In this document: in pieces, positions 18,974 through 61,214 of the stretch
Position numbering within the stretch: the stretch's first letter is position 1
Layout: each line of letters starts with the position of its first letter
From: an uncultured Bacilli bacterium
Lineage (GTDB): Bacteria; Bacillota_I; Bacilli_A; RFN20; CAG-449
Direction: 5' to 3'
Assembly: GCA_944332075.1 (NCBI GenBank)
Contig: CALVJL010000001.1
Span: 67,787 to 131,786, forward strand
Length of the DNA: 64,000 nt
Made by a program: the position numbers and the translations under genes
The notes under the pieces: model-generated
Databases searched by the model: none
Told to the model about the DNA's origin: nothing
What the model saw: only the letters and a program-made list of their open reading frames with translations

Positions 18974-19777
18974 TTAATCAATAATTCCGTGACGGAAATC
19001 AATCTTAAACGCTTTAGCTAAGGTTAATAATTGTTCATTAGTAATTGATTGTAAACGTGGTTTATCACAGATTTTCATATAGATTTCTGCAGCTTTTTCA
19101 ATTGTTTCAATCAATCCGAAAACTTCATCAAGAGTCTTACCTGTGCAGAATAATCCGTGTTGAGCCCAAACAACTGAACGATATTCTTTCATCTTTTCAG
19201 CAGTAGCGATACCGATTTCTTCTCCACCGCAGAGAATCCAAGGTAATACTGCGATTCCTTCTGGGAAAACAACGATGGATTCTGTTTGCATCTTCCAAAG
19301 ATCTTCAGTCCAATGATTAGAATCTAAATCATGAATATGTGTCATGCAAATAACATTTGTTGGATGGCAATGGCAAACTAAACGATGTTTTGGATCAACT
19401 TTTAATCTTTCAATATGACATTTTAAATGAGTTGGTGCCTCGGAAGTTGGTGCCCCACCATCTTTGTAACCCCAAAGTAAACCGAGAGTGTGATTATCAA
19501 TTACTTTAAGAATTCCTAAATTAGTTTCAGGATCTTTGAGGCAGTTTTTGAAATATTTTCCAGTTCCAGTAATAACAAAATATTTACCGACAATTGATGA
19601 CATATCAAAGTTATAAGTAAATGTTCTTTTAACTTTGTCAGTATCACAAACCGATTCTACTTCTTCTTCAGTTAAGATATAAGAAAGGTTACCACCATTT
19701 CTTTCATCCCAGCCATGCTTATATAATAAATCAAGAATTTCTGTTACTTCTTCAATGCATTTGTATCCCATTTTCAT
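18974..19777 (-). CDS. rhaD: Rhamnulose-1-phosphate aldolase
   Basis: Class II zinc aldolase splitting L-rhamnulose-1-P into dihydroxyacetone phosphate and L-lactaldehyde. 267 residues. GWDERNGGNLSY is the RhaD start, the zinc ligands are in HRLVCHCHPTN and VVWAQHGLFCTG, and SEAPTHLKCH carries the phosphate/Glu region. Its ATG overlaps the rhaA stop (TAATG). Confidence 0.94.
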   Translation of the reverse strand: MKMGYKCIEEVTEILDLLYKHGWDERNGGNLSYILTEEEVESVCDTDKVKRTFTYNFDMSSIVGKYFVITGTGKYFKNCLKDPETNLGILKVIDNHTLGLLWGYKDGGAPTSEAPTHLKCHIERLKVDPKHRLVCHCHPTNVICMTHIHDLDSNHWTEDLWKMQTESIVVFPEGIAVLPWILCGGEEIGIATAEKMKEYRSVVWAQHGLFCTGKTLDEVFGLIETIEKAAEIYMKICDKPRLQSITNEQLLTLAKAFKIDFRHGIID

Positions 19778-22398: not shown

Positions 22399-22422
22399 AA
22401 TAACCTCCTTATCTTCATCTTT

Positions 22423-22451
22423 ATTTTACCAAAAAATGTAAGCGTTATTAT
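22423..22451 (-). promoter_or_regulatory. rhaBAD promoter with cre-like catabolite site
   Basis: Extended -10 TGGTAAAAT on the minus strand (22423-22431). ATGTAAGCGTTATTAT (22436-22451) matches the CcpA cre consensus WTGNAARCGNWWWCAW with one mismatch (T for C at position 14). Its place over the -35 region suggests glucose repression of rhamnose use. Confidence 0.5.
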
Positions 22452-22460
22452 ATAACTATC

Positions 22461-22490
22461 TTGCACTCATTTATAATTATTTTGTAAAAT
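22461..22490 (+). promoter_or_regulatory. Promoter of the AraC-family regulator
   Basis: TTGCAC (22461-22466), 18-base spacer, TAAAAT (22485-22490). The ATG at 22497 is only six bases past the -10, so the mRNA may have no leader. Confidence 0.4.
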
Positions 22491-22496
22491 ACATAT

Positions 22497-23345
22497 ATGC
22501 ATAATCGTTTTCCTTTATTTTCTGATCAAAGTAATCTTCTCTATATTTCTGAGACGATTATCGATAAAGAATTTTACTCTTCTATGCATTCACATCCGAA
22601 TCTAGAAGTCCTCTTTTTTATCGACGGAGAGGGATTTGTTCGTTCAAGCGAAGAGAAATTAAAAGTTAGTAAGCATGATATAGTTATTATTAATGCTAAT
22701 ACCATGCATTATGAGGATACTAATAATCTCGTACATTTTTATGCCATTGGAATCAACGCTTCGGAAATATTTCTTCATGAAACATTCAAGAAGCAAATAA
22801 TCCACATCAGGCCAGAAAAAAACAATGGTAATGAAATAGAGCTAATATACCGTATGATTTATCAAGAAGCTTCCTTAAAAGTGGAATCATCATTAGATAT
22901 TATTACTTCTCTTTATAAGATACTGCAGACTCTTTTATCAAGGACAAAACCTCTATTCTTTTACACAAAACAAACAGATAAATATTCATCTGTCGTGGCT
23001 TCTACGATGAATATCATCGATAACTATTTTTATTCTGATTTGAAACTAGAGGAAATAGCTGCTCGCTTTTCCATTTCTGTTTCGTCTCTCTGCCACCAAT
23101 TCAAAAACGAAACCAATACTTCATTAATCGACTATAAGCTAAATTGTCAAATAAATGAAGCTAAGAACTTATTAAAAGTAACTGATATGTCAATGACACA
23201 AATTTCATCAGCAATCGGATTTAATTCGTCATCGTATTTTGCAAAAATTTTTAAATTAAAAACCGGTATGACACCAAGCCAATACCGGAATAATGCTAAG
23301 AATAAAAATTACAATATTTCCTCAATTTCAACATCATCGCACTGA
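22497..23345 (+). CDS. AraC-family regulator, probably of rhamnose genes
   Basis: 282 residues. N-terminal cupin-like sensing domain (MHSHPNLEVLFFIDGEGFV ... HDIVIINANTMHYEDTNN) and C-terminal pair of helix-turn-helix motifs (LEEIAARFSISVSSLCHQFKNET and MTQISSAIGFNSSSYFAKIFKLKTGMTPSQYR). Divergent from rhaBAD across a 98-base gap, which makes it the likely rhamnose-responsive activator. No Shine-Dalgarno precedes the ATG. Its last 37 bases overlap a gene on the other strand. Confidence 0.88.
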   Translation: MHNRFPLFSDQSNLLYISETIIDKEFYSSMHSHPNLEVLFFIDGEGFVRSSEEKLKVSKHDIVIINANTMHYEDTNNLVHFYAIGINASEIFLHETFKKQIIHIRPEKNNGNEIELIYRMIYQEASLKVESSLDIITSLYKILQTLLSRTKPLFFYTKQTDKYSSVVASTMNIIDNYFYSDLKLEEIAARFSISVSSLCHQFKNETNTSLIDYKLNCQINEAKNLLKVTDMSMTQISSAIGFNSSSYFAKIFKLKTGMTPSQYRNNAKNKNYNISSISTSSH

Positions 23346-38240: not shown

Positions 38241-39458
38241 ATGAAAAAATTAAATAAAATGCTAGCTTTAATTGCTTCAATCGGTTTATTAACCGCTTGT
38301 GAAGTAAGATTTTATTTCCCTTGGGATTCTCGTCCGGAGACAACATCTAACGCAAATCCTACTTCGCCTATTACCTCGCAAAGCCAACCAGGTAACATTG
38401 ATTCAATTCCAACCGATAGCGATACTCCGTCTGGAATGATTAAACATGGTAAAAATCTTTATTTACAGGGAAATGAACCTGAGCCAAATGAAAATTTAGA
38501 AATATACTTTTATCAATTAGAAAATTCTCAAAGCCAAAAGCAATCAGCAGATGCCTTCTTTATTAAATACGGCGATGTTGAAGTCTTAATTGATATGGGC
38601 ACAGAAACCATTGGTTCTTATGCGGTTATGCCTTATTTAAAGGAACATAACATAATCGAAGATAATACAATTGAATTGGCCATAAATACCCATGTCGATA
38701 AAGATCATATCGGAGGTTTTGTCGGCAATAGCAACGGAGGAAAATACGATTTAGGATTACTCCGTTCATCATATGATATTTCCGTTCTTTTAGACTCAGG
38801 GTACACGAATGACACTCAGCTATATACTCGCTATGTTTCCTTCAGAGAGGAAAGAATTGCCGCAGGAATGACATATTATTCTTACCAGGAAACAATGACA
38901 AGCGATATCGTGCCAAACGTTTTCTATTTAGGAAGCGATACTTATATCCAAGTTCTAGATACAAAACTATATGAAAACAATTTTGAAGAGGTCAAAGATT
39001 TAAACGATTCTTCTGTTCCTGTCTTATTAGTACATGGAAATAACAAATTTTTATTGATGGGCGACTGCGAGAAAAAAGCCGAAGAAAGAGTTATTGAATA
39101 TAATAATCTATCTAAAGTTGATTTTTTCAAAGCTAATCACCATGGCTCACCAACCAGCAATACTGAAGCTTTGCTTGATATCATCCGTCCAGACTATATC
39201 GTTATTGATTCAACTGCGAGTAACTCCTATAACTTGCCAAAGAAAGAAATAGTCGATCGGTTTTTAAAATATACTGAAAACATCTACGCCCCATTTATCA
39301 ATGGAGGCATTCATATCTATTCTGATAAAACCAATATAACATTTGAATGCGATGGTTTTATTGATTATACAAATAATAAAGAAGGAGAATTGGTCGAAGG
39401 TACACAAGGTCAACCAACGCCTTTGCAAAATACATCTTGGTACCAGACCGCTGTATAA
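38241..39458 (+). CDS. Secreted metallo-beta-lactamase-fold lipoprotein (ComEC-like)
   Basis: 405 residues. Lipoprotein signal with lipobox LTAC (Cys20), a Ser/Thr/Pro/Asn linker to about residue 65, then an MBL domain: DAFFIKYGDVEVLIDMGTE, NTHVDKDHIGG (151-159, the HxDxDH form also seen in ComEC), LLVHGNNKFLLMGDCEKKAEE and FKANHHGSPTSNTEALL, the ComEC-type ending. So it is an extracellular, membrane-anchored hydrolase; ComEC relatives act on nucleic acid or phosphodiesters. GAGGTG precedes the ATG. Two bases separate it from the metalloprotease gene. Confidence 0.85.
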   Translation: MKKLNKMLALIASIGLLTACEVRFYFPWDSRPETTSNANPTSPITSQSQPGNIDSIPTDSDTPSGMIKHGKNLYLQGNEPEPNENLEIYFYQLENSQSQKQSADAFFIKYGDVEVLIDMGTETIGSYAVMPYLKEHNIIEDNTIELAINTHVDKDHIGGFVGNSNGGKYDLGLLRSSYDISVLLDSGYTNDTQLYTRYVSFREERIAAGMTYYSYQETMTSDIVPNVFYLGSDTYIQVLDTKLYENNFEEVKDLNDSSVPVLLVHGNNKFLLMGDCEKKAEERVIEYNNLSKVDFFKANHHGSPTSNTEALLDIIRPDYIVIDSTASNSYNLPKKEIVDRFLKYTENIYAPFINGGIHIYSDKTNITFECDGFIDYTNNKEGELVEGTQGQPTPLQNTSWYQTAV

Positions 39459-39460
39459 AA

Positions 39461-40948
39461 ATGAAAAAGAAAATACTATTATTGAGTACAATTGCTACTC
39501 TATTTACATTAACGAGCTGTCAAGGAATTTTTCCTAGCAAAGAAATCATTTTTTCTCCAAATGAAAGCAATGCTGAAATTTATGAGGGGTATTATAAACC
39601 AAAGGAATTACGCTTAAATTATCAAGATGTCAACAAGACCACATCTTGGGTTACATCACTTTCTACCGGTGAACAAAACCTTTTGATTGTTCCTGTTAAG
39701 TTAAGCGATGGTCCAGTTTGGACAGAAGCGATGCTTAACCGCCTTCATAATGCATTTTTCGGAAGTGATATTGCTCCCTACTATTCGGTAAAAGAATATT
39801 TTCAAACTTCAAGTTATGGAAACTTAAATATCGGCGGCACTATTCTTGATCCAGTAACTTTAAATTATACAGTTGCCGGCTTAAATGCTTATAGCGAATC
39901 CGCTTCCGAAATTGTTGCTTCGGCATTCAATAATAGTAATATCAGCGTTCCTAACGAAAGTCAGTTTGATTTAAATAATGACCATTTATATGATAATACC
40001 ATTTTTATTTATTCTAATGATTTTGCATATGATGGAAGTGGAGCGTATTGGGCCTGGTGCACCAATACAGTAAGCTATGGTAGCCGCAATTATAACGTTA
40101 ATTCCTATATGTGGGCTAGTTATAGTTTTATGGATACCGCTTATGATGATTATTTTGGTGAAGAAACAGCGATGAACGATCCAATAAAATATTGTGAAAC
40201 CCATACTTATATCCATGAAACCGGGCATTTATTAGGCTTAGATGATTATTATAATTATGATAATGATGGTTGGGAACCATCAACAGCCTATGATATGCAA
40301 GCTAATAATATCGGCGACCACAACATCTTTTCTAAATTAGCTCTCGGATGGGTAAAGCCATACGTTGTTACTTCTGACTGCGTTATCACTCTTCGCTCAT
40401 CAGCTATTTATCCAGACTGCATTTTAATAAAAAACAAATGGAACGGCTCGGCATTTGATGAATACTTATTAATTGAATACTATACTCCCGATATTTTAAA
40501 TGATCTCGACTCACAGCATCCATATGGATCAATAACCATGATGAAAGAACGCGGATTAAGAGTTTATCACGTAGATGCTAGATTGATTTCTGTCTATAAT
40601 TTTGGAAATAGTTTCATTAAAACCGGAGGTTATACCGATGAAATCGGTGATGGAGCGCTTGTCGGAGCCAGCAATACCCCATCCCGTTCCTATCTAAATA
40701 GCCATGGAAAGGATTTTAAGCTAATTCACTTAATCGACAATAATCATCAAAATACTTATAATAACCGCGGACATTCTATGAAAAAAGAGGATATTCTTAT
40801 CGAGGAAAATAAAACTATAACCCCAGCATATCTTAACGATTATTTCTATTATGGAAGTACCTTCAACGATGGAGAAAAAATCAACTTTTCTTTCACTGGA
40901 AGCAATTATCAAGATACGTCTTGCCAAGTTACAATTTCATTTAACTAA
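39461..40948 (+). CDS. Secreted M6-like metalloprotease lipoprotein
   Basis: 495 residues from the ATG at 39461, two bases after the previous stop. Lipobox LTSC (Cys20). PYYSVKEYFQTSSYGNLNI, IFIYSNDFAYDGSGAYWAW and the zinc site HETGHLLGLDDYY (His252, Glu253, His256, Asp261) match the M6/immune-inhibitor-A family, followed by YDMQANNIGDHNIFSKLALGWVKPYV. Predicted surface protease, coupled with the MBL lipoprotein. Confidence 0.85.
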   Translation: MKKKILLLSTIATLFTLTSCQGIFPSKEIIFSPNESNAEIYEGYYKPKELRLNYQDVNKTTSWVTSLSTGEQNLLIVPVKLSDGPVWTEAMLNRLHNAFFGSDIAPYYSVKEYFQTSSYGNLNIGGTILDPVTLNYTVAGLNAYSESASEIVASAFNNSNISVPNESQFDLNNDHLYDNTIFIYSNDFAYDGSGAYWAWCTNTVSYGSRNYNVNSYMWASYSFMDTAYDDYFGEETAMNDPIKYCETHTYIHETGHLLGLDDYYNYDNDGWEPSTAYDMQANNIGDHNIFSKLALGWVKPYVVTSDCVITLRSSAIYPDCILIKNKWNGSAFDEYLLIEYYTPDILNDLDSQHPYGSITMMKERGLRVYHVDARLISVYNFGNSFIKTGGYTDEIGDGALVGASNTPSRSYLNSHGKDFKLIHLIDNNHQNTYNNRGHSMKKEDILIEENKTITPAYLNDYFYYGSTFNDGEKINFSFTGSNYQDTSCQVTISFN

Positions 40949-47728: not shown

Positions 47729-49138
47729 TTATATATTTGAAATATTTAAATAATAATCCGAAATATAGATAGTCATCAATTCATAATCATATGAGAAATA
47801 AATCATATGATGTTCACCATTGCTTATATCAATATTATTAAATGTCTTATCATCTATATTGTAAAGAAGGTAATAATCATAATCTTCCGTCGCCAAAATA
47901 TCATTAGGAGAAATTATATTGTATGGATAATTTATCGCTTTTGTAAAATTATCATCATTAGCGATATTTTCATTTATCACTTCATTGTCGCTTTCTGAAA
48001 ATTTAATATGGCTCAATCTATAATACATAATTTCATTTTCTGAAGTAATATCGCCGTAATCGCGGTAAACCATCGTTTCAACATATGAAGGTGTAGGCGT
48101 TTCTAAACCGATAGTTTCACAGATTTGCAAATAATATTGTTCATCGTGAATAAAATTATCTTTATAAATAAAAGTAAATGATCCAAATAAAGAAATAATT
48201 AATGTAAAAACGATACCGCTAATTAAATTTTTAGTAGTTTTGACTTCGCTGACTCTTCCATAAATTGCAAAAAGTATATTAATGATTGGAACTGGTAAGA
48301 AAAATAATAGAATATAAAAATTTTTAATAACATATGCAAACTCATTGATATGTCTATTTGCATAGATTGATAACTCGACAATTAAGAAAAAAGAAGCAAA
48401 AAAGGTTACTAAATTAACAATATAAAGAATTAAAGAAACTTTTCTAATTTTATTGCTTTTTACACTTCCACTTGGAGAATAATAATAAAATCTTCCTGAA
48501 GAATATTTCAAAATATCAATTAGATGCTGATCATTTAAATCTTCAAAAGGTAAATAACCTCCATTTTTTCCCTTTCTCAAATATAAATTATTATCCTTAA
48601 TCGAGACAAAATCGATTTCACTATATAAAATATTTTCTTTTAAATATGCTCTTCTATTATCTGCTATATGAACAATTCTATCTTGATAAAACAAAAACAA
48701 ATCTAAAGTTTCTTTTTTTGCTTTTATCGATTTTTTGACATCATTAATCAGCTTTTGTAAATAAGAATAACCTCCTAAAAAAATAAAGATTGCAATAGCA
48801 AAGAATATTATTCCGACATAAAATATATCTTGCAAAAAGACAAATACAAAACCAAGAATAATACATATAATTGAAGAATATAGTAAAATCGTTAAAACTA
48901 TGTTCTTTGAAGAAATAACATTTCTCACTTCGTCTTTTTCACGGATAATTAACGCTGAAGCCGCTAGCAAATTTTCATCATCAAGGTGAAATAATTTTAT
49001 TATTTTTTGTTCATTTTCAAGTGATAATTCATCATTACTATCAATAAAATTATATAGCAGGTTAACATCTATTTGTGTTTTATCTGCAATTAACGATAAT
49101 TTATCGCGATGATTTTTCAATAGTCTTCTTATATCCAT
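47729..49138 (-). CDS. Membrane protein with N-terminal HTH-like region, function unknown
   Basis: About 469 residues from the ATG at 49138; a start at 49174 would overlap the esterase gene by 19 bases. Residues 1-55 (RRLLKNHRDKLSLIADKTQIDVNLLYNFID) look like an XRE-type helix-turn-helix. Two hydrophobic pairs follow (SSIICIILGFVFVFLQDIFYVGIIFFAIAIFIFLGG and, later, SLILYIVNLVTFFASFFLIV with ILLFFLPVPIINILFAIYG), with a soluble part resembling YcxB/PH-type modules between them (LDLFLFYQDRIVHIADNRRAYLKENILYSEI). An acidic C-terminal domain ends it. No family assigned. Confidence 0.6.
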   Translation of the reverse strand: MDIRRLLKNHRDKLSLIADKTQIDVNLLYNFIDSNDELSLENEQKIIKLFHLDDENLLAASALIIREKDEVRNVISSKNIVLTILLYSSIICIILGFVFVFLQDIFYVGIIFFAIAIFIFLGGYSYLQKLINDVKKSIKAKKETLDLFLFYQDRIVHIADNRRAYLKENILYSEIDFVSIKDNNLYLRKGKNGGYLPFEDLNDQHLIDILKYSSGRFYYYSPSGSVKSNKIRKVSLILYIVNLVTFFASFFLIVELSIYANRHINEFAYVIKNFYILLFFLPVPIINILFAIYGRVSEVKTTKNLISGIVFTLIISLFGSFTFIYKDNFIHDEQYYLQICETIGLETPTPSYVETMVYRDYGDITSENEIMYYRLSHIKFSESDNEVINENIANDDNFTKAINYPYNIISPNDILATEDYDYYLLYNIDDKTFNNIDISNGEHHMIYFSYDYELMTIYISDYYLNISNI

Positions 49139-49155
49139 ATTTTCATTATAATGTC

Positions 49156-50520
49156 TTAATGCTTTTTTGACCATTCTAAAAATGATTCTTCATAATTAGA
49201 AATATGATATTCCTCAAATTGAGCATTAGCATTATATATAAAATATTTTATTAAATAGCGAAGTTTATTTCCAAAATACTTATCTGTAACGTCTAAAGAT
49301 AAAAAAGGTGTATCCATATCAAAAAGGATTGGTACGTCTTCAGCATGGAAGTTTGGAAGATTGTTTTTTCGATATTGTGAAGCTACATAATCAAAAATAT
49401 ATTTATATACTGGTCCAGAATAATTATTTATAATATCAAATAATGGTTCACGATATACAAAGTTTGTCATGCCCTCATAAGCCTTTTCTCGAAAAGAGCG
49501 CTCATCTTTAGCAATTTTAAAATGATATAGTTTTGTTAAAAAAGGTAATAAAGCCTCAGGGATATCATTAATAAATAGGTTTGCTTCATTTGACATAGTA
49601 CTAACCAATAGAGGATACTTCAATGCCGGTACTATATCTTTAGGATGTTTTTTTAATATTTTTCCATCAATTATTGGTGAAAAGCAACATCTAGTTTCAC
49701 CAAGTAATCTTACTATTGATTTCAATTTTTGATTGGCTTTAATAATTTTTTCTTGTGAAACAGAAAATAATTTATCAAGATGATATGGATTTATCTTTAA
49801 GTATTTCAAATACCTTTCAGTTATTTTATGACTTTCTTGTTCAGTGAAAAAATGATCAACCGGAGCAGATAATAAAATTGCTTTATTAAAAGGAGCTTGA
49901 TTTTCATAAATGCTCATCAAAGCAAGAATTGAGGTAGCGCCAGCAGATTGCCCCATAACAATGATATTTTCATCATCTCCATCAAAGAAATGAATATTAT
50001 CTTTAACAAATTCCAATGCATTCATTTGATCGATAAGGCCATTATTAATATCAAATCTATCATCTAAATAATTCAAATTTAAAAAGCCATAAAGATTTAA
50101 ACGATAATTAAATGTTACGACAATCGATTCAGTGTCTTTTGCCAAAGTAGATCCATCATATTTCAATTCTTTAGTATCCGATGATTTTGCACCGGTTCCT
50201 CCAGAATTAAACGAACCTCCGTAAATCCATACTAACACCGGAAGTTTTCTTTTTTCTGTTTTTGGAACGAAAATATTTAGGTATAAACAATCTAAAGAAA
50301 TATTTTTCACGCTAAGCATGCCCTTACCTTGAATAGGATTAGTTTTACCGCTTAAAGCTAAATAAGGAGAGGTCGGTAATTTATAAATTCTTTTTGAATG
50401 TTTGAAAGCCATTTTATCAATTGGGGCTGATGCATATGGAATTCCTAAAAATTTGTATACTCCATCAGCATAAAATCCTTCAATTTGACCTAAACTATCG
50501 CAATTCACTATATGTTTCAT
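49156..50520 (-). CDS. Type B carboxylesterase
   Basis: 454 residues. Signature YLNIFVPKTEKRKLPVLVWIYGGSFNSGG (oxyanion-hole loop), GQSAGATSILAL (nucleophile Ser), and the late FHAEDVPILFDMD with the catalytic His. No signal peptide, so cytoplasmic. Substrate unknown. Next to the HTH/membrane gene on the same strand. Confidence 0.88.
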   Translation of the reverse strand: MKHIVNCDSLGQIEGFYADGVYKFLGIPYASAPIDKMAFKHSKRIYKLPTSPYLALSGKTNPIQGKGMLSVKNISLDCLYLNIFVPKTEKRKLPVLVWIYGGSFNSGGTGAKSSDTKELKYDGSTLAKDTESIVVTFNYRLNLYGFLNLNYLDDRFDINNGLIDQMNALEFVKDNIHFFDGDDENIIVMGQSAGATSILALMSIYENQAPFNKAILLSAPVDHFFTEQESHKITERYLKYLKINPYHLDKLFSVSQEKIIKANQKLKSIVRLLGETRCCFSPIIDGKILKKHPKDIVPALKYPLLVSTMSNEANLFINDIPEALLPFLTKLYHFKIAKDERSFREKAYEGMTNFVYREPLFDIINNYSGPVYKYIFDYVASQYRKNNLPNFHAEDVPILFDMDTPFLSLDVTDKYFGNKLRYLIKYFIYNANAQFEEYHISNYEESFLEWSKKH

Positions 50521-50738
50521 AACAATATAATAACCCTAATTTGTTATTTAGTCATTACCAAATTTATGTATAATTGCACATAATTTTTGTACTATTGAAA
50601 AATTATCATATATTAACCAAGCGAATTTTATTTAAATTTGATATGTACAAATAATATATTAATTATTTTTAAATCCATTATTGACATATAAAAAATAAAG
50701 GTCTACACAAAAACAATTTAAAGGGGGACAAATTAATT
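50521..50738. other. Intergenic region between the esterase and the lipoprotein operon
   Basis: 217 very AT-rich bases with divergent starts on both sides. A possible plus-strand -35 TTGACA (50681-50686) is followed at 17 bases by a poor -10, TACACA (50704-50709). AAGGGGG at 50720-50726 serves as ribosome-binding site for the lipoprotein at 50739. Nothing else seen. Confidence 0.35.
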
Positions 50739-53444
50739 ATGAAAAAGACCAAAATTTCTTTGGCTATTTTAGCGTTAGCTGCATCTACAATTCTTGCAGC
50801 TTGTGGCGGAACTACATCAAGTACAACGCCGACAACAAGTGCTGGTGGTGTTTCATCTGGAACAACAGAACCAACACCTGTTACTTCTTCTGCAACATCA
50901 GCGGTAGTTGTTGATCATGAAGAATTAAAAGTAACAAAGCCGACAAAATCGACATATGAATTAGGAGAAGCTCTCGATTTAGCAGGACTTAAAGTTGAAA
51001 AAGTTAGCTATGATGCTGATGATGTTGAACTTGAACGTGTTACTTTATCCGAAGGAGAATATACGCTTTCTCACCCAGGAACAACCGTTGCTACTGGCTT
51101 AACTCTTGATTTTGCTGGTGAAATGCCAATCACTGTCAAAGCTGGTGAATTAACAACAAGTTTCACAATCACTATTAATCCATCGGTTACTGCAGCTTTA
51201 AGAATTACAAAACCAACAAAGAGCGTTTATGTTGTTAGCGACGAACTTGATTTAACTGGTCTTAAAGTTGAGAAAGTTACAACAACCGATACTGGTTCAT
51301 CAAAAGTTGAACCAACAGAAGAAGTTGTTGAACTTAAAGCAGGTGAATATACGCTTTCACATCCTGGTACAACTATCGAAAATGGATTAGTTCTTGATTT
51401 TGCCGGTGAAATGCCAATTACTGTTACTGCTGGTGATTTAAAAGTAAAATTCACAATTACTATTAATCCAAAAGTTACAGAAGAATTAAAAGTTACTCCA
51501 CCAACTAAGACTACCTACGTTCATGGTGAAGCACTTGACTTATCCGGATTAAAAGTTGAAAAAGTTACAACGACTGATAATGGCGGAAAGGCTGAACCAA
51601 CTGTAGTAACAAAAGAATTAACCGAAGCTGAATATACTTTAACTCATGGTGGAACATTCACAGTTACTGATGGTGTTTTATTAGAGAAATCTGGATTAAT
51701 GACTATTAAAGTCACTGCTGGTGATTTAACAGCCTCATTCACTATCACAATTGATTCTGTTGTAACAAAAGCAATTGCGGTTACTAACTTACCTACTAAA
51801 ACTGAATACAAAGCTGGTGAAATATTTGAAACTGCTGGTTTAGTAGTTTCATTAACTACGACAACTGATGGTGAAGCAGTAACAACCGTCTTAGAAGAAG
51901 GAGACTATACCTTAACTATCGACGGACAAGCTGCAGCAACCTATATTTTCCAGCCAACTGAAGAAAATCAAGAATATACAGTAACTGTCACACCAAAAGA
52001 CACAACTATTGCTCCTGCTACATTCGTAGTCACAGCCTCACCTGTTGAAGTTGCTAAATATGGCGTAACCATTGAAGGCTTAGGCGATATGAAGCTTGAT
52101 TGGTGGTATGTCGGAGGAACTGAATGGGTTGTCGATAGGGGTGAACCAATTGAAGACATTACTACCGCTAAATTCAAAGAAGGCGATGAAATTGGTTTCT
52201 CTATTGCAGCTGATTCCCCTTCATATGTCAAATATGAAGATATAGAATTAGAAGGTGCAACATTATTAAATAGAACAACTATTGGTGATGACGAAAAAGA
52301 ATCATTCTACTTCACAGTTAAAACTAGCGATGTTAAATTAATTATTAATAATCTTCGCAGTGAGACCCAATATGCCGGTAAAGAATTTGTTGGAACATAC
52401 ACTGTTTATGATTTATCATCAGGAACAACAGCTCATACATTAGTTGTTGGAGCTGACGGCAAAGTAACATTAGATGATGGTACTAGTTACGAATACACTT
52501 ATGATGAAGCAACTGGCGACTTTGATATGGAATACAGCAGTGTATCACTTGCATATAGCGCTGGAGCTATCTTCTATAACAGCAAATATTTAGGATTCAA
52601 AGACGGAACTCTTTCATCATATTTATACAATTCAAACAGTGAATATCTTGCAGAATTCACTGCTGCTGGAGAAAAAACATTAGTTTATAAGTACTACTCG
52701 TATTTATTAGTTGAAGGTACTGATTTCACCGCAGAATATGCTGGTGAGGATTTATCTGATTTCTCAGTTTTAACATTAACAGCCGATGTTGATGATGAAG
52801 GAGATTCTAGTTTATCAATTGCTATGGGATATAGTGCTGTTGATAGAACTTCAGTAGAAGGAAAACACCTTGTTTATATTGTTCCTGATGGAGAAGGCGG
52901 ATTCACAAGAGAAAAGAAAGATGGTACACAGGGAACATATACTGGTGCAGAAGGTGAACTCGTATTAGATGGTTTCAAAAATTACACATTAAATGGTGTA
53001 AGCGGTACATGCACATATGATAAAAGTTTAGGAATTATCACTCTTGATACTGGAAAAACATATAAAATTGATACCGATGCAATGACATATGAAGAATTTG
53101 AACTCGTTACTTCTGATCCTTGGGCAACATCAACTGCTGAATTTGTTTCAGAAGACGGAACTTTCACTTTTACATTTAGTAACGGAAAAGTTACATTTAC
53201 AGATAGCAAACATTCTTGGCAAGACGAGGGTACCGCTATTTCATATAAGGTTTCTAATGGAAAATTAACATTTGAAGCTACATATGATTATTGGAATGAC
53301 GAATATGCTGAATTTGTATTATTCATCGATTCAAGTCTAGAAACAATCACTGTTTTTGAAGATGTAGTAGCTGAACCATTATATGGTTGGGGAGGCACAA
53401 CAATTATGAAAGCAGGCACTGTCTTTACTTTAGTTACTGAATAA
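50739..53444 (+). CDS. Secreted lipoprotein with four Ig-like (Big_3-type) repeats
   Basis: 901 residues. Signal peptide with lipobox LAAC (Cys22), a Ser/Thr linker to about 60, then four repeats of about 95 residues starting near 65, 155, 251 and 347, each beginning with a pattern like T-x-P-T-K-x-x-Y-x-x-G-E-x-L-D-L-x-G-L. The first three are very similar in DNA, which suggests recent duplication; the fourth has drifted. The remaining 450 residues have no recognised domain but many short beta-like motifs (GTYTVYDLSSGTTAHTL). First of four lipoprotein genes. Confidence 0.88.
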   Translation: MKKTKISLAILALAASTILAACGGTTSSTTPTTSAGGVSSGTTEPTPVTSSATSAVVVDHEELKVTKPTKSTYELGEALDLAGLKVEKVSYDADDVELERVTLSEGEYTLSHPGTTVATGLTLDFAGEMPITVKAGELTTSFTITINPSVTAALRITKPTKSVYVVSDELDLTGLKVEKVTTTDTGSSKVEPTEEVVELKAGEYTLSHPGTTIENGLVLDFAGEMPITVTAGDLKVKFTITINPKVTEELKVTPPTKTTYVHGEALDLSGLKVEKVTTTDNGGKAEPTVVTKELTEAEYTLTHGGTFTVTDGVLLEKSGLMTIKVTAGDLTASFTITIDSVVTKAIAVTNLPTKTEYKAGEIFETAGLVVSLTTTTDGEAVTTVLEEGDYTLTIDGQAAATYIFQPTEENQEYTVTVTPKDTTIAPATFVVTASPVEVAKYGVTIEGLGDMKLDWWYVGGTEWVVDRGEPIEDITTAKFKEGDEIGFSIAADSPSYVKYEDIELEGATLLNRTTIGDDEKESFYFTVKTSDVKLIINNLRSETQYAGKEFVGTYTVYDLSSGTTAHTLVVGADGKVTLDDGTSYEYTYDEATGDFDMEYSSVSLAYSAGAIFYNSKYLGFKDGTLSSYLYNSNSEYLAEFTAAGEKTLVYKYYSYLLVEGTDFTAEYAGEDLSDFSVLTLTADVDDEGDSSLSIAMGYSAVDRTSVEGKHLVYIVPDGEGGFTREKKDGTQGTYTGAEGELVLDGFKNYTLNGVSGTCTYDKSLGIITLDTGKTYKIDTDAMTYEEFELVTSDPWATSTAEFVSEDGTFTFTFSNGKVTFTDSKHSWQDEGTAISYKVSNGKLTFEATYDYWNDEYAEFVLFIDSSLETITVFEDVVAEPLYGWGGTTIMKAGTVFTLVTE
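50931..52040 (+). repeat. Four tandem copies of a repeat of about 280 bases inside the lipoprotein gene
   Basis: Units start near 50931, 51201, 51489 and 51777. The stretch GAATATACGCTTTC and the segment reading FAGEMPITVKAG recur between the first two almost unchanged. Confidence 0.75.
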
Positions 53445-53461
53445 CATAGAACGGAGCCATA

Positions 53462-54319
53462 ATGAAGAAACAATTATTATTCACTTTATTAACCTTGACA
53501 TTATTAACAGCTTGTGGGGGAACAACTTCATCAGTTGCTTCCTCTGCTCCTGTTAGCAGTCCATCATCTACGACAACTTCAGAAGTTTCATCTTCAACTT
53601 CTGATAGTTCTTATTCTGATTTCGACTTATCGTTTAGAGGAATCACCATCGATAATGTTTATGAAGATTATTCATCAGCATCATTTGGTGGAATGCTTGA
53701 GGATATCGGTATTGGAGCTTGGATGGTAGTCGGTGATGAATACACAATTAATGTCGATATTAAAGATCTTTCAGATCAAACCATTTCTGTCGAGTTTGAT
53801 GATCCAAGTATTTGCGAGTATCGACTTGATGAAATTGATGGTCAAAAATCGCAAAAATTAATTCCGTTAAAAACTGGTGGTACTACAATGCGTATCTACG
53901 ACGCTAATCACGATTTAATCTACCGCAATGCGATTAATTGCCGCGTTGCTATTAGAGATATTGATACAATGTTTGAGGTTCTCTACCAAGCTGATTACTG
54001 GGCTGGAGCCTTCTCATCAGCTGCAGGAATCGGTTATTACCGCTTCTCAATGTCATCCGACGAAAACCACAATATCATAACAATATCTGGTCAAGATTCA
54101 GGAATTAGTTACGCACCAGCGCAATTTGAAGTTGATCTCGATAATTATGTCGAATCAGATGTCGAAACTTTCCATACTTTCGACTTCAGTTGCACAATGC
54201 TTACCACCGATACTAGCTTAAATATCACGCATTTTGCTGTATCTTTATCACTTGACACAATCTATGTTTCTGAAGATATCGGAATTCTCGATTTCTTTAG
54301 ACCAGTCTATCTCGATTAA
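53462..54319 (+). CDS. Secreted lipoprotein, unknown function
   Basis: 285 residues. Lipobox LTAC (Cys18), a Ser/Thr-rich linker (residues 20-50), then a compact acidic domain. I recognise no family. Starts 17 bases after the previous gene, with CGGAG upstream. Second of the four-lipoprotein operon. Confidence 0.8.
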   Translation: MKKQLLFTLLTLTLLTACGGTTSSVASSAPVSSPSSTTTSEVSSSTSDSSYSDFDLSFRGITIDNVYEDYSSASFGGMLEDIGIGAWMVVGDEYTINVDIKDLSDQTISVEFDDPSICEYRLDEIDGQKSQKLIPLKTGGTTMRIYDANHDLIYRNAINCRVAIRDIDTMFEVLYQADYWAGAFSSAAGIGYYRFSMSSDENHNIITISGQDSGISYAPAQFEVDLDNYVESDVETFHTFDFSCTMLTTDTSLNITHFAVSLSLDTIYVSEDIGILDFFRPVYLD

Positions 54320-54343
54320 TTAGAAAGGGGATTAAATCAGGAT

Positions 54344-56998
54344 ATGAAAAAAACTAAAATATTAACTTTAGTAGCAATGGCAGCATTATTAGCTGCTTGC
54401 GGAGGAACATCTTCTTCAGTTTCCTCATCATCACAAGGAGGTAGCACACCTTCTACTTCACAAACTCCATCAGTTTCGTCTGAAACTAGTACTGCTACTA
54501 GTTCCCAAGGCGGAAGTTCTTCAACAACTAGCCAAACACCGGTTGAAGAAGAATACCGCGTCAATATCGGAGCAACTATGGGAGGTGTTACTGTAACTAG
54601 CGATAAAGAAAAAGCTAAGGCTGGGGAAGTTATTACCTTAACTGTTACTGTCACTAATAATAGTTATACAGTCACTGGGGTTTTCTATGATGAATCTGCT
54701 TGTACCAAAACAAACGATACCACATATTGGTTCATTATGCCGGATCACCCAGTAACTGTTACTGTTAGAGCAAATGTCGAAGGCGATGTTACTTTACAAG
54801 GCGATATCACTGCAGCTCTTACTGAGGAAAACGGAATTTATGTAGCTAGAAACGTTAGAGTCGATGCTGATAGTGACTTCAATTTAGTCATTAAAAGTGG
54901 TGATACTACCGAAGAACTCGATTCTTTCTCGCTTGATAGATGCAAAACAACTGCGAATATTGAATACTCAAGACAAAATGAATATGCTTTTGAAATTAAA
55001 GGTGGCTGCACATATGATTTCTTCTACGATGTCAATAATGGCGCGCGTCCTTTCTATGTAAGAAGAACTGCTGTAAATTCATTACCTTCTGGTGAAGATT
55101 CACTCTATAGTTTATTTGCTGGATCAATTCTTTCTGAATACACAGTTAACCCTCAAGGTATCACAGCAATTAACTATAAAAATGAAGCTGCTAATGAAAC
55201 TTATCAATGGAAGTTATATAACAATAACACATCATATGCTAAAGTAACTGAAAGCGATAGCACTGGTGCAGTTAAAACTAAGGCTGAAGTTTATACTAAG
55301 CTTGAAGATTCTACATTAACTATTGTTGATACTTATACCCCATCGACTGAAGATGCTTATAAATATGATTACTCTTGCTCGGGTGATTCAAAAAAGTATG
55401 CCGGCCGTTATGTTGTTAGCGATAACGATGAAGATGGTGATTTAACAAGCGATATTGGATTTGAACAATACTCAAATTATGTTAATTCACACACAGCTGA
55501 TTTCGTTCTTAAACAAGGATATAACCACGGCATGGAATCAATTGAAACAGACTTTATGCATTCCTACCGTGTCGGAATGACTGTTGAAGATTATATCAAG
55601 CAAGCTTCAGTTAATATTACCTCCGAAGATACTGCTGAAGGATTTACCACAAAAATTGTCTCTTCAAAAACTTATGATGATACTGGCTCTAATGGTGGAG
55701 TTGGTAAATACCATCTTGAATATCGAGCAACACTTAATTTCAAAGATGACGGAACATTATTATCTGTCGACTATGAGTATAAAACCTTTGATGAATCAGT
55801 GTTTAATTTCACTAATTTTACTTGGCTTAGCGGAGATACAGCTAGTAACTATGCAAATAATGGCAAGTTAGTCAACCATGTCACCGCAACCTATAAATAC
55901 GGCACTGAATCAGCACCTGATTATACATTTGATGTCACACCTTACTTTGTCTCCCAAATCAAAGACCTCAGCGTTAATAATCCAGATGCTGATATTGATG
56001 CCGCTAACAAATTAAATGTCGGTGATGCAGCTGAAGATTATGCCACTTGCACTTATTTACCAGAAACTGCGCTCGATACTTGGCAATATGAATTTCTCTC
56101 TTCTAGTAATGAAAATGTCATCGCTTATGATGATTCATATGTTGAATATGCTGCTATTGGAGATGGAACAACTACATTAACATTTGGTTCTGTCAATGGA
56201 TTAGGAACATCTGCTACAGTTGATGTCACAGTAGCATATACTTATAAATTAAGAAATATTTACCTTTATGAAGATTTCGGAAAATATGCACCTATCACTA
56301 GTTCTTCATCCGCAGAACTCAACGCAGGTACAGTTGCTGAATATGGTTTACAAGCTAAAGAATCTGACCACAACAGTGTCATTCCTCTACCAAGCGATGC
56401 AACACTAGAAGTAATTGAAGGCAGCGATCTTGGTGTTACAGCAACTTTAAATTTTGCAAAAGGAACCATAACTGTCGATGCTAGCAGAGCCTCTGTTACA
56501 AAAGCAAGTGATTTCACAGTCAGATTAAATACTTCATATTATGATCCAGAATGGGTTGATTCGCCAATTGAATTCACATTCACAATTTTACCTGGTGTCA
56601 GCGTTGACGGAATTGTCGGTACATACTTACCTAACGATTCATCTTATGCCGGTGATTCAATCACCTTTACTAAAAATTCTACTTCATCAATTCCAGGATA
56701 TGAAGGAACATTACCTTATATTGGAACAATGACCGCAGACAAGACTTCTTATAGTTTTGCATGGGGAATTAATGAATTAGGTGAAATTGAAACACAATTC
56801 TTAAGTGGCGCTTTACCTGAAGGAGCAATGGTTAATTTAGACCTCGTCTACCACTCAGATACTGAATCACTTGATGTCATCTTCTCTTACTCTGTTATTG
56901 GTGATACATCTGGAGGAGATTTCGGAACTACCTACGAAGTCATCGGCTATTACGATGAAGAAAACTTCCCTGTTTACGTTACTTTCAACAAACAATAG
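54344..56998 (+). CDS. Large secreted lipoprotein, unknown function
   Basis: 884 residues. Lipobox LAAC (Cys19), Ser/Thr linker to about 65, then a repeat-like module ending YWFIMPDHPVTVTVRAN that resembles the tail of InlB B-repeat domains. The rest is beta-rich with no recognised enzyme motif; it contains Asp/Asn-rich turns and IPLPSDATLEVIEGSDLGV-type segments that look Ig-like. GAAAGGGGA precedes the ATG. Third gene of the operon. Confidence 0.82.
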   Translation: MKKTKILTLVAMAALLAACGGTSSSVSSSSQGGSTPSTSQTPSVSSETSTATSSQGGSSSTTSQTPVEEEYRVNIGATMGGVTVTSDKEKAKAGEVITLTVTVTNNSYTVTGVFYDESACTKTNDTTYWFIMPDHPVTVTVRANVEGDVTLQGDITAALTEENGIYVARNVRVDADSDFNLVIKSGDTTEELDSFSLDRCKTTANIEYSRQNEYAFEIKGGCTYDFFYDVNNGARPFYVRRTAVNSLPSGEDSLYSLFAGSILSEYTVNPQGITAINYKNEAANETYQWKLYNNNTSYAKVTESDSTGAVKTKAEVYTKLEDSTLTIVDTYTPSTEDAYKYDYSCSGDSKKYAGRYVVSDNDEDGDLTSDIGFEQYSNYVNSHTADFVLKQGYNHGMESIETDFMHSYRVGMTVEDYIKQASVNITSEDTAEGFTTKIVSSKTYDDTGSNGGVGKYHLEYRATLNFKDDGTLLSVDYEYKTFDESVFNFTNFTWLSGDTASNYANNGKLVNHVTATYKYGTESAPDYTFDVTPYFVSQIKDLSVNNPDADIDAANKLNVGDAAEDYATCTYLPETALDTWQYEFLSSSNENVIAYDDSYVEYAAIGDGTTTLTFGSVNGLGTSATVDVTVAYTYKLRNIYLYEDFGKYAPITSSSSAELNAGTVAEYGLQAKESDHNSVIPLPSDATLEVIEGSDLGVTATLNFAKGTITVDASRASVTKASDFTVRLNTSYYDPEWVDSPIEFTFTILPGVSVDGIVGTYLPNDSSYAGDSITFTKNSTSSIPGYEGTLPYIGTMTADKTSYSFAWGINELGEIETQFLSGALPEGAMVNLDLVYHSDTESLDVIFSYSVIGDTSGGDFGTTYEVIGYYDEENFPVYVTFNKQ

Positions 56999-57007
56999 GA
57001 GAATACA

Positions 57008-58393
57008 ATGAGAAAAAAATTAATCTTATCATTACTTGTCTTATCATCAATCGGTTTAACCGCATGTAATCAAGGTACGACGAGTCTCATGTCAAGTGGT
57101 GAAAGTTCATCTTCGCAAACAAGTATAGTATCAAGTGACAATGTCTCAACAGTTGGCGAAGCTTTACAAGCTTTAAAAACAATTGACTTTGAACTTGTAA
57201 CTATTTCAACCAATGAGGGAAAAGTTTTCGATACTGTCTTTACTCAAGATTTCACTTATGACGCATTAAATAGTCAAGGTTATTTAGTCAAAGATGGAAA
57301 AGTTTATCCATATATTGATGACAATCAAACAATTCGAACTGGTTTAGAATCAACTTTCACTTCTCTCTATGGTCAAGACGGGGCAGTGAGCAATTTCGAT
57401 CTCGATTTATCACTATTGGATTATAGCACTGAAGAAGTGACTTCCTTAAAACGCGATTTTGTTGTACCTATTATCAAAATGATGGGTATAGGGGAAGAAT
57501 ACTACACAACTGTGCTCTCATGCCGCCTTTATCTAGATGGAAATAAAGCAACTGATTTAGGAATTGAAGTAAATGTCGATGGTTCAATCTACCGCGGTTT
57601 AATTCTTGATTATGAAGGGGAATTTGACTACGTTGATGAATTCATCAAAAATGATGCTTTATCCACAATTGACCCATTATTACTGCATGTAAAGGAATTA
57701 TTCGATCAAGATAATTATACTCTTTGCTTATATGATGATGCTTCAACACCAGATACTCCGACATCATATTCATATTTCACTGATGATTACTATATTCAAA
57801 TCTTTACAAATGCTTATATCGCTCTTAATCCATTAGCTCAGTCACAGCAATATGGTTATATGGAAATTCTTAATCCAGATACACCTATTAATGTAAATGG
57901 TCAAGACTTAATCTTTGATGATATTTATATGTTTACTTATAGTGGAAGTTATGAAACTGAAGGAAGCTTAGGTATTTATACCCGTGATAATCCTTCAAAA
58001 CCTGGCTATGCTCAAGGTGCTTTCACTTATCGCTGCACAGATATTTCACAGGTTATGAATTATCCGCGTTACTCATCGCTTTTCTCGTATCTCCAAGTTT
58101 TTGAAGAAACTGAAAGCGAAATAGAGGGAGCGAGAACTTTCTCAACAACTTATCAACCAGTTATCGCTGATATTTTAGATAATTATGGCTTAACCGGTGG
58201 ATTTGATAACTATGGAGGAATTGAAACATTACAGATTATTGATATCCCAGAAAGCAACCGGGCTAATGAACGCGTTATCTTCCGTTTATTAACTCCAGGC
58301 GGAACTGGTTACTATGATCTTGATCACACCAATTTCGGAAGTACAGAATTTGCTCCATTTGAAGATTTAAGGCAATCGCTTAATCTCGATTAA
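57008..58393 (+). CDS. Secreted lipoprotein, unknown function
   Basis: 461 residues. Lipobox LTAC (Cys20), a short Ser/Thr linker, then an alpha/beta domain that starts VGEALQALKTIDFELVTISTNEG. No family recognised. Nine bases after the previous gene; AGGAGA upstream. Fourth and last gene; a terminator follows. Confidence 0.8.
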   Translation: MRKKLILSLLVLSSIGLTACNQGTTSLMSSGESSSSQTSIVSSDNVSTVGEALQALKTIDFELVTISTNEGKVFDTVFTQDFTYDALNSQGYLVKDGKVYPYIDDNQTIRTGLESTFTSLYGQDGAVSNFDLDLSLLDYSTEEVTSLKRDFVVPIIKMMGIGEEYYTTVLSCRLYLDGNKATDLGIEVNVDGSIYRGLILDYEGEFDYVDEFIKNDALSTIDPLLLHVKELFDQDNYTLCLYDDASTPDTPTSYSYFTDDYYIQIFTNAYIALNPLAQSQQYGYMEILNPDTPINVNGQDLIFDDIYMFTYSGSYETEGSLGIYTRDNPSKPGYAQGAFTYRCTDISQVMNYPRYSSLFSYLQVFEETESEIEGARTFSTTYQPVIADILDNYGLTGGFDNYGGIETLQIIDIPESNRANERVIFRLLTPGGTGYYDLDHTNFGSTEFAPFEDLRQSLNLD

Positions 58394-58396
58394 AAC

Positions 58397-58428
58397 AAAA
58401 AGGACTGTTCGTAAGAACAATCCTTTTT
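58397..58428. terminator. Terminator between the lipoprotein operon and the P-ATPase gene
   Basis: AAAAAGGACTGTTC (58397-58410) / GAACAATCCTTTTT (58415-58428), one mismatch, loop GTAA. Serves both convergent genes. Confidence 0.75.
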
Positions 58429-58436
58429 AATTTGCT

Positions 58437-61214
58437 TTATAAAAGTCTGCCATAATGTTTCTTATAGAGATACTTTGCAATCGTAGTTAATATTGAATAA
58501 ATTAAAACAAATATAATCATAAACAATATAAATGACGGATTTATCGGTGAAAAATCAAAGATGGTATTAACGTTTGGAACATAAATAACAAAGAAACCTA
58601 ATAAACAAGAAACAATAATTCCAAGTGATAAAGTAATAGATGGAAACGATTGAATTAAAGGTAATTTTTCGGTTCTTAAGAAAGCATAGACAACGTTTTG
58701 AGTTAATAAAGATTCTAAGAAGAATCCTGATTGGAAAATCGTCATGAATAAAATGAATTCTGGGCTGTTGCTTTCCCAAAGTTTATTAAATTGACTGCCG
58801 ACTGCCATTGGGCAAATATAGTACATCAATAAAGCAAATGTTAACATATCGACAAGAGAAGATATTGGGCCAAAGGTAAACATAAAGTTTCTAATTTGCC
58901 GAGATGAGAAATTTAATGGCTTAAGAATTTGTGATTCATCAACTTTATCAAAAGGAATAACTCCGCATGAGATATCGGTAATGATGTCGAGCAAGATCAA
59001 GTGTAAAGCCCTCATCGGCATAAAAGGAATCCATAAAGCTCCAATCGATTGCGAAATCATGTTACCGAAATTTGAGGAAGTTTGACCCTTAAGATATTTC
59101 ATCATATTAACATAGGATTTTCTGCCTTCGATAATCCCGTCTTTTAAAACCTCTAAATTATTTTCCATCATAACGATATCCGCGGCTTCTTTAGCAATAT
59201 CCGTTGCATCTTTAAAAGAAATACCGACATCAGCCAAACGAAGGGATGGAGCATCGTTGATTCCATCACCCATGAAACCAACGGTATGCTTAAATTTATT
59301 TTCTTTTAAAGCTTTGACAATACGATATTTATCATCTGGGCTAAGTTTATAGAAAATATTATATTCTTCGACTTTATTTTGGAGTTCAGTATCATCCATT
59401 GCAGAAATTTCTTCTCCGGAAAGATATTTAACATTAGTAAATCCAGTTTTTTTTGTAACTTCTAAAGTAGTTTGTAAATTATCTCCGGTTAACACCTTAA
59501 TTTCCACTCCATAATGACGCAAAGAATTTAAAGCTGATTCTGCATTGCTCTTAACTTTATCTTCAAATGATAAAAAGCCTAAAAATGTCATATCTTTTTC
59601 ATCTGAAATATTAACTGTAGCCTTTTCATCCATTTCACGAATAGCTAATAAAATAACTCTTCTTCCCCGTCTTTCCTCTTGATTGACTTTACGAAGAATT
59701 TTTTCTTTAATCTCGTCAGTAAGTGCGATAGCTTCTGTATTATTTCTAAGTTTTACTTTAGAAATGGTCTCAAGCATTTCTTTACAGGCACCTTTAGTGA
59801 TTAAGTACTTTTTCTTATCAGTTACATTTTCTAAAAACACCGATAATCTCTTGCGGTGGAAATCAAATGGCAATTCGTCAATTTTTTGATAATCGGAAGA
59901 AATATCTAAAATATGTGAAGCGTTCAATGAAGAAAAATAAATAATTGATTTATCGATAACTGAACGAATTCCGCTTTGGAAATACGAATTTAAATATGCG
60001 TATTGTAAAACATAATCGTCATCATTATCATCGTCTAAATTAAAGTAATCGCATAAAGTTGAACTCGCTTCGGTTAAAGTACCGGTTTTGTCTGTGCATA
60101 ATACATCCATCGCTCCAAAGTTTTGGATAGTATTAATATCTTTTACAATAACCTTTTTTTCTGACATTTTTAAAGCGCCTTTAGCCAGATTAGAAGCTAC
60201 CTGCATCGGTAATAAGCTCGGCATAATACCAACCGCGACAGTAATAGCAAAGACAAAAGCTTCAATCCATTGATGATAGTCGTTATATCCGCTAATGGTG
60301 ATGCCTGATGGCGAGATATTTATTCCTATTCCGTCTACTAAGAAAACTATCGGCAGCATGATGACTAAAAAAGTAACTAAAAGCTTAGAGACGCTATCAA
60401 TTCCTTTTTCAAATGCTGTTTTTCCTTTTTTCTCAACTACTTTTTTAGCTAATTGACCAAAAATTGTTTTATCGCCAACAGCAATAATTATTCCTTTTCC
60501 TTGCCCAGAAACAATATTTGAACCAGAGAACAATAAGCACTGTGCATCAAAAATTGATGATACATTATCTTCTAACGGCAAATCATTCTTTTCAACCGCT
60601 TCAGATTCTCCAGTCAAGCTCGCCTGAGAAACAAATAAATCTTTTGATTCAATGACTCTAATATCAGCAGGGACCATGTCACCAGCTGACAAAGCGACAA
60701 TATCCCCAACAACCAATTCACTATTTGGAAGTTCAATCTTGGCATTATCACGAATAATAGTTGATGTATTTTCTGATAAAGATTTCAAGGCCTGTGTGCT
60801 TCTAAGAGACTTATTTTTTTGAACAAAGCCAACTAACCCTGACATCAAAATAATAATGATTAAAATAAGCGGCGTAATCCACCAAGTCATTTTCTCTTCT
60901 TGTGAAGATGGAGCAAAATAAGAAACAAGCCCTGAAACTATCGCGACAAAAAGCATTATAAAAATAAATGGTGAACTAAAAGATTCTAATAATCTAATGA
61001 ATACAGTTTCGTCTTTAGCTTTCGATAAGATATTTTTTCCATACTTCTCTTCGCTAGCATTTCTTTCTTCTAATGAAAGGCCCTTATTAGCATCAGAAGA
61101 AAGACTTCGGAGGCACTGATCTTTCGTTAACTTTGCATTTTCAAATAATTCTTTTGAAACATCATTTTTATTGATTAACTCAGTTTTATTAATTTTATTC
61201 TTTTTTAAAATCAT
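58437..61214 (-). CDS. mgtA: Magnesium-transporting P-type ATPase (MgtA type)
   Basis: 925 residues. Cation ATPase N-terminus, actuator ASLTGESEAVEKN, phosphorylation site VLCTDKTGTLTEASS (Asp near 375), ATP-binding LTGDNLQTTLEVT and hinge MGDGINDAPSLRLADVGISF, then the C-terminal membrane helices. GQTSSNFGNMISQSIGALWIPFMPMRALHLILLDIITDIS is the MgtA/MgtB type. GGAGG is seven bases before the ATG. No M-box riboswitch is seen in the 100 bases upstream. Confidence 0.92.
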   Translation of the reverse strand: MILKKNKINKTELINKNDVSKELFENAKLTKDQCLRSLSSDANKGLSLEERNASEEKYGKNILSKAKDETVFIRLLESFSSPFIFIMLFVAIVSGLVSYFAPSSQEEKMTWWITPLILIIIILMSGLVGFVQKNKSLRSTQALKSLSENTSTIIRDNAKIELPNSELVVGDIVALSAGDMVPADIRVIESKDLFVSQASLTGESEAVEKNDLPLEDNVSSIFDAQCLLFSGSNIVSGQGKGIIIAVGDKTIFGQLAKKVVEKKGKTAFEKGIDSVSKLLVTFLVIMLPIVFLVDGIGINISPSGITISGYNDYHQWIEAFVFAITVAVGIMPSLLPMQVASNLAKGALKMSEKKVIVKDINTIQNFGAMDVLCTDKTGTLTEASSTLCDYFNLDDDNDDDYVLQYAYLNSYFQSGIRSVIDKSIIYFSSLNASHILDISSDYQKIDELPFDFHRKRLSVFLENVTDKKKYLITKGACKEMLETISKVKLRNNTEAIALTDEIKEKILRKVNQEERRGRRVILLAIREMDEKATVNISDEKDMTFLGFLSFEDKVKSNAESALNSLRHYGVEIKVLTGDNLQTTLEVTKKTGFTNVKYLSGEEISAMDDTELQNKVEEYNIFYKLSPDDKYRIVKALKENKFKHTVGFMGDGINDAPSLRLADVGISFKDATDIAKEAADIVMMENNLEVLKDGIIEGRKSYVNMMKYLKGQTSSNFGNMISQSIGALWIPFMPMRALHLILLDIITDISCGVIPFDKVDESQILKPLNFSSRQIRNFMFTFGPISSLVDMLTFALLMYYICPMAVGSQFNKLWESNSPEFILFMTIFQSGFFLESLLTQNVVYAFLRTEKLPLIQSFPSITLSLGIIVSCLLGFFVIYVPNVNTIFDFSPINPSFILFMIIFVLIYSILTTIAKYLYKKHYGRLL

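Follow-up and report, generated by a model that had tools for sequence, protein, structure and literature searches.

Four consecutive lipoprotein genes, here designated P1 to P4, lie at positions 50739–58393 of a 64,000-nucleotide window (G000:C1:67787-131786) from the genome of an uncultured Bacilli bacterium (1.47 Mb, completeness 98.75%; Table 1). Comparisons of gene content and gene order indicate that P2, P3 and P4 form a near-obligate module and that the conserved unit comprises three genes, not four; P1 is a local add-on, restricted to the window's genus and genome G021. P4 is predicted to be a tandem duplication of the LolA/LprG-type lipid-carrier fold. We assign a probability of roughly 0.45 to the reading that P2, P3 and P4 constitute a cell-surface complex that binds a hydrophobic ligand (lipid or glycolipid), possibly for lipid scavenging. 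With regard to the lipid supply of uncultured gut Bacilli that lack fatty-acid synthesis, the trio offers a concrete, testable candidate for a surface step in part of the group.

Co-occurrence and linkage of P2, P3 and P4

When 58 relatives were searched with P3, full-length homologues turned up far beyond the genus, with P2 directly upstream and a P4 relative mostly adjoining. In a profile search of 279 genomes of the order, P3 was found in 48 (53 copies), P2 in 49 and P4 in 50, and all three occurred together in 47. Co-occurrence across related genomes had been proposed as a check when the locus was initially read from its letters without database searches (the sequence-only reading), and these counts bear it out. 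The corresponding Fisher P values (2e-53 for P3/P2, 2e-48 for P3/P4 and 2e-50 for P2/P4) overstate the association, because the genomes are related and therefore not independent. Excluded before counting were P3 matches weaker than 1.5e-86 (most of them to residues 1–150, others being fragments in G126 and G056), matches to P2 weaker than 1e-13 (largely confined to the signal and linker) and partial P4 matches reaching up to about residue 280, namely a second match in G069 at 3e-27 and those at 6e-21 or weaker. A search for P3 outside the order, in 346 genomes drawn from the class (an unspecified share of them from other orders), detected no full-length P3, the only match being a partial one in G501.

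The three genes are also physically linked. At 49 of the 53 copies, P3 is directly preceded by P2 in the same orientation (at the others, P2 is far away in two cases and missing from the contig in two), and P4 is found within 3 kb of P3 at 45 (two far, six with no P4 on the contig). The position and strand of P4 vary while its linkage to P3 is kept: it is downstream on the same strand in 21 cases, downstream on the opposite strand in 14, upstream on the same strand in nine and upstream on the opposite strand in one. Exceptions are few. G245 lacks P4, in a genome that is 64% complete; G161 and G169 carry P4 without P2 or P3 (L103 and L104), the G169 contig spanning 9.5 kb; and in G082, P2 is interrupted by the contig end. 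At 24 loci of the named collection, in which close relatives of the window are metagenome-assembled genomes of uncultured Bacilli and Firmicutes, Candidatus Alloenteromonas among them (probably the GTDB order RFN20 or a neighboring group), P2 is adjacent to P3 in 22 and P4 lies within 3 kb in 18. Three loci without P4 (L089, L090 and L092) belong to genomes with a second P2–P3 copy plus P4 (L097, L096 and L100, respectively).

Clustering of the neighboring genes at 26 loci recovered P3 at 26, P2 at 24 and P4 at 23, with every other family at six or fewer. The BLAST clusters and the profiles differ in detail: at L082 a P4 appears in the clusters but not in the profile results, whereas P2 of L090 and L092 was detected by the profile and missed by the clusters. 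Distance matrices of P2, P3 and P4 correlate at 0.92–0.94 across 17 of 19 loci (L084 and L093 were excluded, their P2 and P4 belonging to another P3 copy), a correlation equally expected from common inheritance. The earlier proposal of a lipoprotein binding complex is thus retained in part: co-occurrence and linkage of P2–P4 and the lack of a catalytic family are consistent with it, whereas the four-gene unit gives way to three genes and an add-on.

Two lipoproteins of about 800 residues, divergent from P2–P3 and weakly similar to the P3 profile, were observed at L047, L089, L090 and L092.

Predicted folds of P4 and P3

The AlphaFold2 model of P4 has a predicted local distance difference test score (pLDDT) of 80.4 and a predicted template-modeling score (pTM) of 0.75. 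When aligned with VIA-align, residues 220–456 match mycobacterial LprF (4qa8; Z 9.0, root-mean-square deviation (rmsd) 4.8, 174 residues aligned), LprG (Z 9.0–8.8) and LppX (Z 7.3), and residues 47–221 match the LolA-type structure 4mxt (Z 7.1) and RseB (Z 7.0). The first 28 matches are all of the LolA fold, the first five with rmsd 4.7–4.9 over 168–175 aligned residues. The two halves of P4 also match each other (hhalign probability 95.8%, E 7e-9), which points to an internal duplication. Pfam assigns no family to the window's P4, and no LolA-type family appears among the hits of 21 P4 members at E ≤ 0.05; the missing sequence match carries little weight, since the fold is one of low sequence similarity. 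A likely fold is now available for one or more of three families left blank by Pfam and NCBIfam.

The LolA/LprG fold itself is already known. LprG, LprF and LppX share the lipoprotein anchor and align with the P4 C-terminal domain over about 160–175 residues, but P4 combines two such domains in one protein, has no constant transporter neighbor and gives no sequence-level family match. LolA, LolB, RseB and MucB, among which 4mxt and RseB resemble the N-terminal domain, are Gram-negative proteins with a single domain or a different C-terminal domain, in contrast to the tandem domains of P4 in a small-genome Bacilli lineage. Narrow searches of the open-access literature found no description of a module of three proteins in which one is a tandem LolA-type lipoprotein. 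Elsewhere in the same genome, a 645-residue lipoprotein (L105:5835-7772) contains two stretches similar to the N-terminal domain of P4 (E 1e-21 and 1e-7).

P3 is modeled with a pLDDT of 78.9 and a pTM of 0.62. Its residues 147–242 resemble SusE (4fch; Z 7.7, rmsd 2.7, 87 aligned) and SusF (4fe9; Z 7.3), residues 245–526 resemble LprG (3mh8, Z 6.6, rmsd 7.0, 163 aligned; 3mh9, Z 6.1), and residues 751–883 resemble the lipoprotein BT2262 (Z 6.5). Because matches below Z 8 may represent chance arrangements, only the fold of P4 and the immunoglobulin-like (Ig-like) domains of P3 are regarded as firm. The divergent InlB B-repeat family PF18998 matches 17 of 24 P3 members at E ≤ 0.05 (best 8e-8) but not the window's own copy; an earlier guess at InlB-like domains thus fits the P3 family.

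Apart from this repeat, no known family covers P2–P4. Pfam, NCBIfam and PADLOC yielded no useful match to them other than signal and linker hits, and sequence profiles of the PDB matched mainly the same regions, with additional weak S-layer matches for P2. Family searches of all four proteins found no catalytic family, in agreement with the sequence-only reading, which had recognized no enzyme.

Proposed lipid binding and competing explanations

The physiology of the order provides a setting for a role in lipid handling. The FabF-type ketoacyl synthase (PF02801) is absent from 272 of the 279 genomes, including that of the window (10 of 14 controls were positive), and DegV/FakB proteins are present in 276, with five copies in the window's genome. 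Passages on the order RF39, of the same class, in Nayfach et al. 2019 (PMC6784871) report the loss of fatty-acid synthesis and suggest intracellular incorporation of exogenous fatty acids; these passages name no surface step of lipid acquisition. Passages of PMC6363788 describe the pockets of LolA-fold proteins as hydrophobic and triacylglyceride as a ligand of LprG, and according to PMC10576003, LprG probably receives its load from a transporter. Near-constant co-travel of the three genes, carriers lacking fatty-acid synthesis and one predicted lipid-carrier-like fold together suggest that the trio may aid lipid handling or uptake.

In such a model, P2, P3 and P4 would come together on the outer side of the membrane, with the P1 Ig-like stalk added in the window's genus. 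P3 would act as a long scaffold in which the InlB-like repeat is joined by a SusE/SusF-like sandwich, perhaps a glycan binder, a possible LprG-like domain and Ig-like spacers, and P2 would be its small, near-constant partner. Host, food or neighboring membrane material might be among the sources of lipid or glycolipid that P3 would capture. Each of the two tandem clam folds of P4 might hold an acyl chain or another hydrophobic ligand, and P4 would receive lipid from P3 and deliver it to the membrane, the cell being unable to make fatty acids. Import is possibly the direction of transfer, and the most attractive one, if conjectural. The fully specified version, which we consider unlikely, is a relay, not previously described, by which gut Bacilli auxotrophic for fatty acids would acquire lipid outside the cell: P3 would attach to a source bearing lipid or glycan, the two P4 domains would pass lipid from one to the other and on to the membrane, and FakB would take over inside.

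Several observations weigh against a lipid-binding role. With Foldseek alone, the first LolA-type match to P4 ranks only 28th (E 7e-3, probability 0.98), and the weak LprG-like match of P3 (Z 6.6, rmsd 7.0) falls partly within low-confidence regions of the model. The fold is no proof of lipid transport, as it is shared by the sensing protein RseB and the enzyme VioE in the accounts given by passages of PMC6363788. Clustering of the 26 loci revealed no transporter among the constant neighbors. The module does not track the synthase, which occurs in 0 of 48 carriers and 7 of 231 other genomes (P = 0.6). Moreover, it cannot be a general lipid-uptake route, because only 48 of 279 genomes carry it though nearly all are without fatty-acid synthesis; its patchy presence could mean that it is one of several lipid routes or is tied to one lipid source.

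The main rival, which we consider somewhat unlikely, is a glycan-binding or adhesive surface complex, in which P3 and P1 reach out through InlB-like, Ig-like and SusE/SusF-like modules and the LolA folds of P4 are structural or bind protein. PF18998 and Big_3 domains are usual in surface-binding proteins; the former is present in the P3 family and the latter in P1, where the number of repeats is variable. Internalin-type and Big_3 repeat surface proteins share these domains, but Pfam lists no leucine-rich repeat family here and the proteins carry a lipid anchor (lipobox identified by eye). The SusE/SusF resemblance (Z 7.7 and 7.3) would also fit, although it remains below Z 8. Bacteroides SusE and SusF are likewise lipoproteins with a chain of beta-sandwiches, of which P3 has a single module, and the locus shows neither SusC/SusD nor a glycan operon. 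A SusD-like match, which the sequence-only reading had named as evidence against its proposal, was not found; no SusD family occurs in the four proteins, and no family besides P2–P4 recurs in more than six of the 26 loci, whose neighbors were not Pfam-scanned. A glycan-binding or adhesive complex also leaves the two tandem LprG-type domains of the near-constant partner P4 unexplained. The predicted P4 fold points to lipid handling over the plain adhesion envisaged at the outset.

A second alternative, which seems improbable, retains lipid handling but not uptake: the trio would help to assemble or release lipoproteins, glycolipids or lipoteichoic acid belonging to the cell itself, similar to LolA–LolB in Gram-negative bacteria. 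The tandem folds of P4 do recall donor–acceptor pairs, and LprG and LolA are described in passages of PMC6363788 as moving lipids outward or between the cell's own membranes and not as importers. The patchy presence of the module (48 of 279) speaks against a housekeeping assembly role, however, and no envelope-assembly gene is found among the constant neighbors. It is very unlikely that P4 is an envelope-stress or lipid sensor, sensing lipid or mislocalized lipoprotein and signaling via a membrane partner: RseB and MucB are among its structural matches (Z 7.3–5.5), and RseB, with its LolA fold, regulates the sigma-E pathway according to passages of PMC6363788, but neither sigma nor anti-sigma genes were observed among the constant neighbors, and three secreted lipoproteins lacking a membrane-spanning partner cannot signal alone.

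The locus, P1 and other genes of the window

The four genes are real and operon-like. Open reading frames and translations agree with their initial description as tandem lipoprotein genes; each begins with ATG, and the intergenic gaps are 17 (P1/P2), 24 (P2/P3) and 9 bases (P3/P4). By eye, a signal peptide, a lipobox cysteine and then a Ser/Thr-rich linker are seen at the beginning of each translation. Upstream of P1, P3 and P4 are Shine-Dalgarno-like stretches; that of P2 is weaker. Promoter-like sites do not exceed those of shuffled sequences (39 versus 33.8, standard deviation 6.8), which gives no pointer to internal promoters and does not prove a single transcript either. The hairpin directly 3' of P4 is likely a terminator, and no RNA elements were found at 49000–60000.

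Table 1. Positions of genes, predicted domains and the hairpin in the window
Feature	Residues	Position	Strand	Description
P1	1–901	50739..53444	+	lipoprotein; Ig-like repeat stalk and C-terminal head; local add-on to the module
P1 stalk	62–438	50922..52052	+	four Big_3 Ig-like repeats, 63–74% DNA identity
P1 head	439–901	52053..53441	+	C-terminal head; no known family
P2	1–285	53462..54319	+	lipoprotein; part of the module; immediately 5' of P3 in relatives
P3	1–884	54344..56998	+	multidomain lipoprotein; module core
P3 domain	67–147	54542..54784	+	divergent InlB B-repeat domain (PF18998 in 17/24 family members)
P3 domain	148–246	54785..55081	+	beta-sandwich, SusE/SusF starch-binding-module-like
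P3 domain	247–530	55082..55933	+	alpha/beta domain, LprG-like; tentative
P3 domains	531–751	55934..56596	+	two Ig-like domains, Big_2/S-layer type, Z up to 8.6
P3 domain	752–884	56597..56995	+	C-terminal beta domain, BT2262-like
P4	1–461	57008..58393	+	lipoprotein; two predicted LolA/LprG-type domains
P4 domain	41–221	57128..57670	+	predicted N-terminal LolA-type domain
P4 domain	222–461	57671..58390	+	predicted C-terminal LprF/LprG-type domain (Z 9.0, rmsd 4.7–4.8, 169–175 aligned)
Hairpin		58396..58429	. (listed on -)	15 pairs; directly 3' of P4, between convergent genes

All four genes are under purifying selection relative to the congener G001, with ratios of nonsynonymous to synonymous divergence (dN/dS) of 0.122 for P1, 0.065 for P2, 0.125 for P3 and 0.084 for P4. 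In codons 601–800 of P3 and 601–700 of P1, synonymous and nonsynonymous differences from G001 both jump locally (dS 0.75 and dN 0.14 in P3 codons 701–800, compared to about 0.25 and 0.02 before that stretch), which suggests recombination of those domains.

The stalk of P1 contains four Big_3 matches (PF07523; E=2e-14, 54.1 bits versus a gathering score of 21.2), as a profile check advised by the sequence-only reading would have it. Three of the repeats had been described as nearly identical in DNA and recently expanded. Repeats 1–3 are in fact only 69–74% identical to each other (63–67% to repeat 4; 58–66% and 33–43%, respectively, in protein), and this divergence leaves a recent expansion unsupported. 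Big_3 matches four stretches in the window's P1, three each in G001 and G002 and none in G021, although by eye the G001 protein has the same four units as that of the window. Homologues of the C-terminal part occur among the 58 genomes only in G001, G002 and G021, with a weak, partial match in G054; the gene order P1-P2-P3-P4 in G021 is that of the window. P1 was considered as a constant fourth partner of the module and rejected, since the profile of its head matches only P1 of the window's genus and of G021.

The studied locus is one of several such lipoprotein clusters in the genome. Further large lipoproteins with Ser/Thr-rich linkers are arranged in tandem in L106 (G000:C5:34000-45000; four in a row) and L107 (G000:C20). 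Two more follow each other at 38241–40948 of the window, presumably a metallo-beta-lactamase-like and a metallopeptidase-like protein with a HETGH motif, as judged by eye. The gene upstream of P1 (49156–50520, minus strand), carboxylesterase-like by eye, has a dS of 0.71 relative to G001, compared to about 0.2 to 0.3 for its neighbors, and is possibly an imported divergent allele. Finally, positions 18974–23345 encode what we take from the translations to be a rhamnose utilization operon with an AraC-type regulator.

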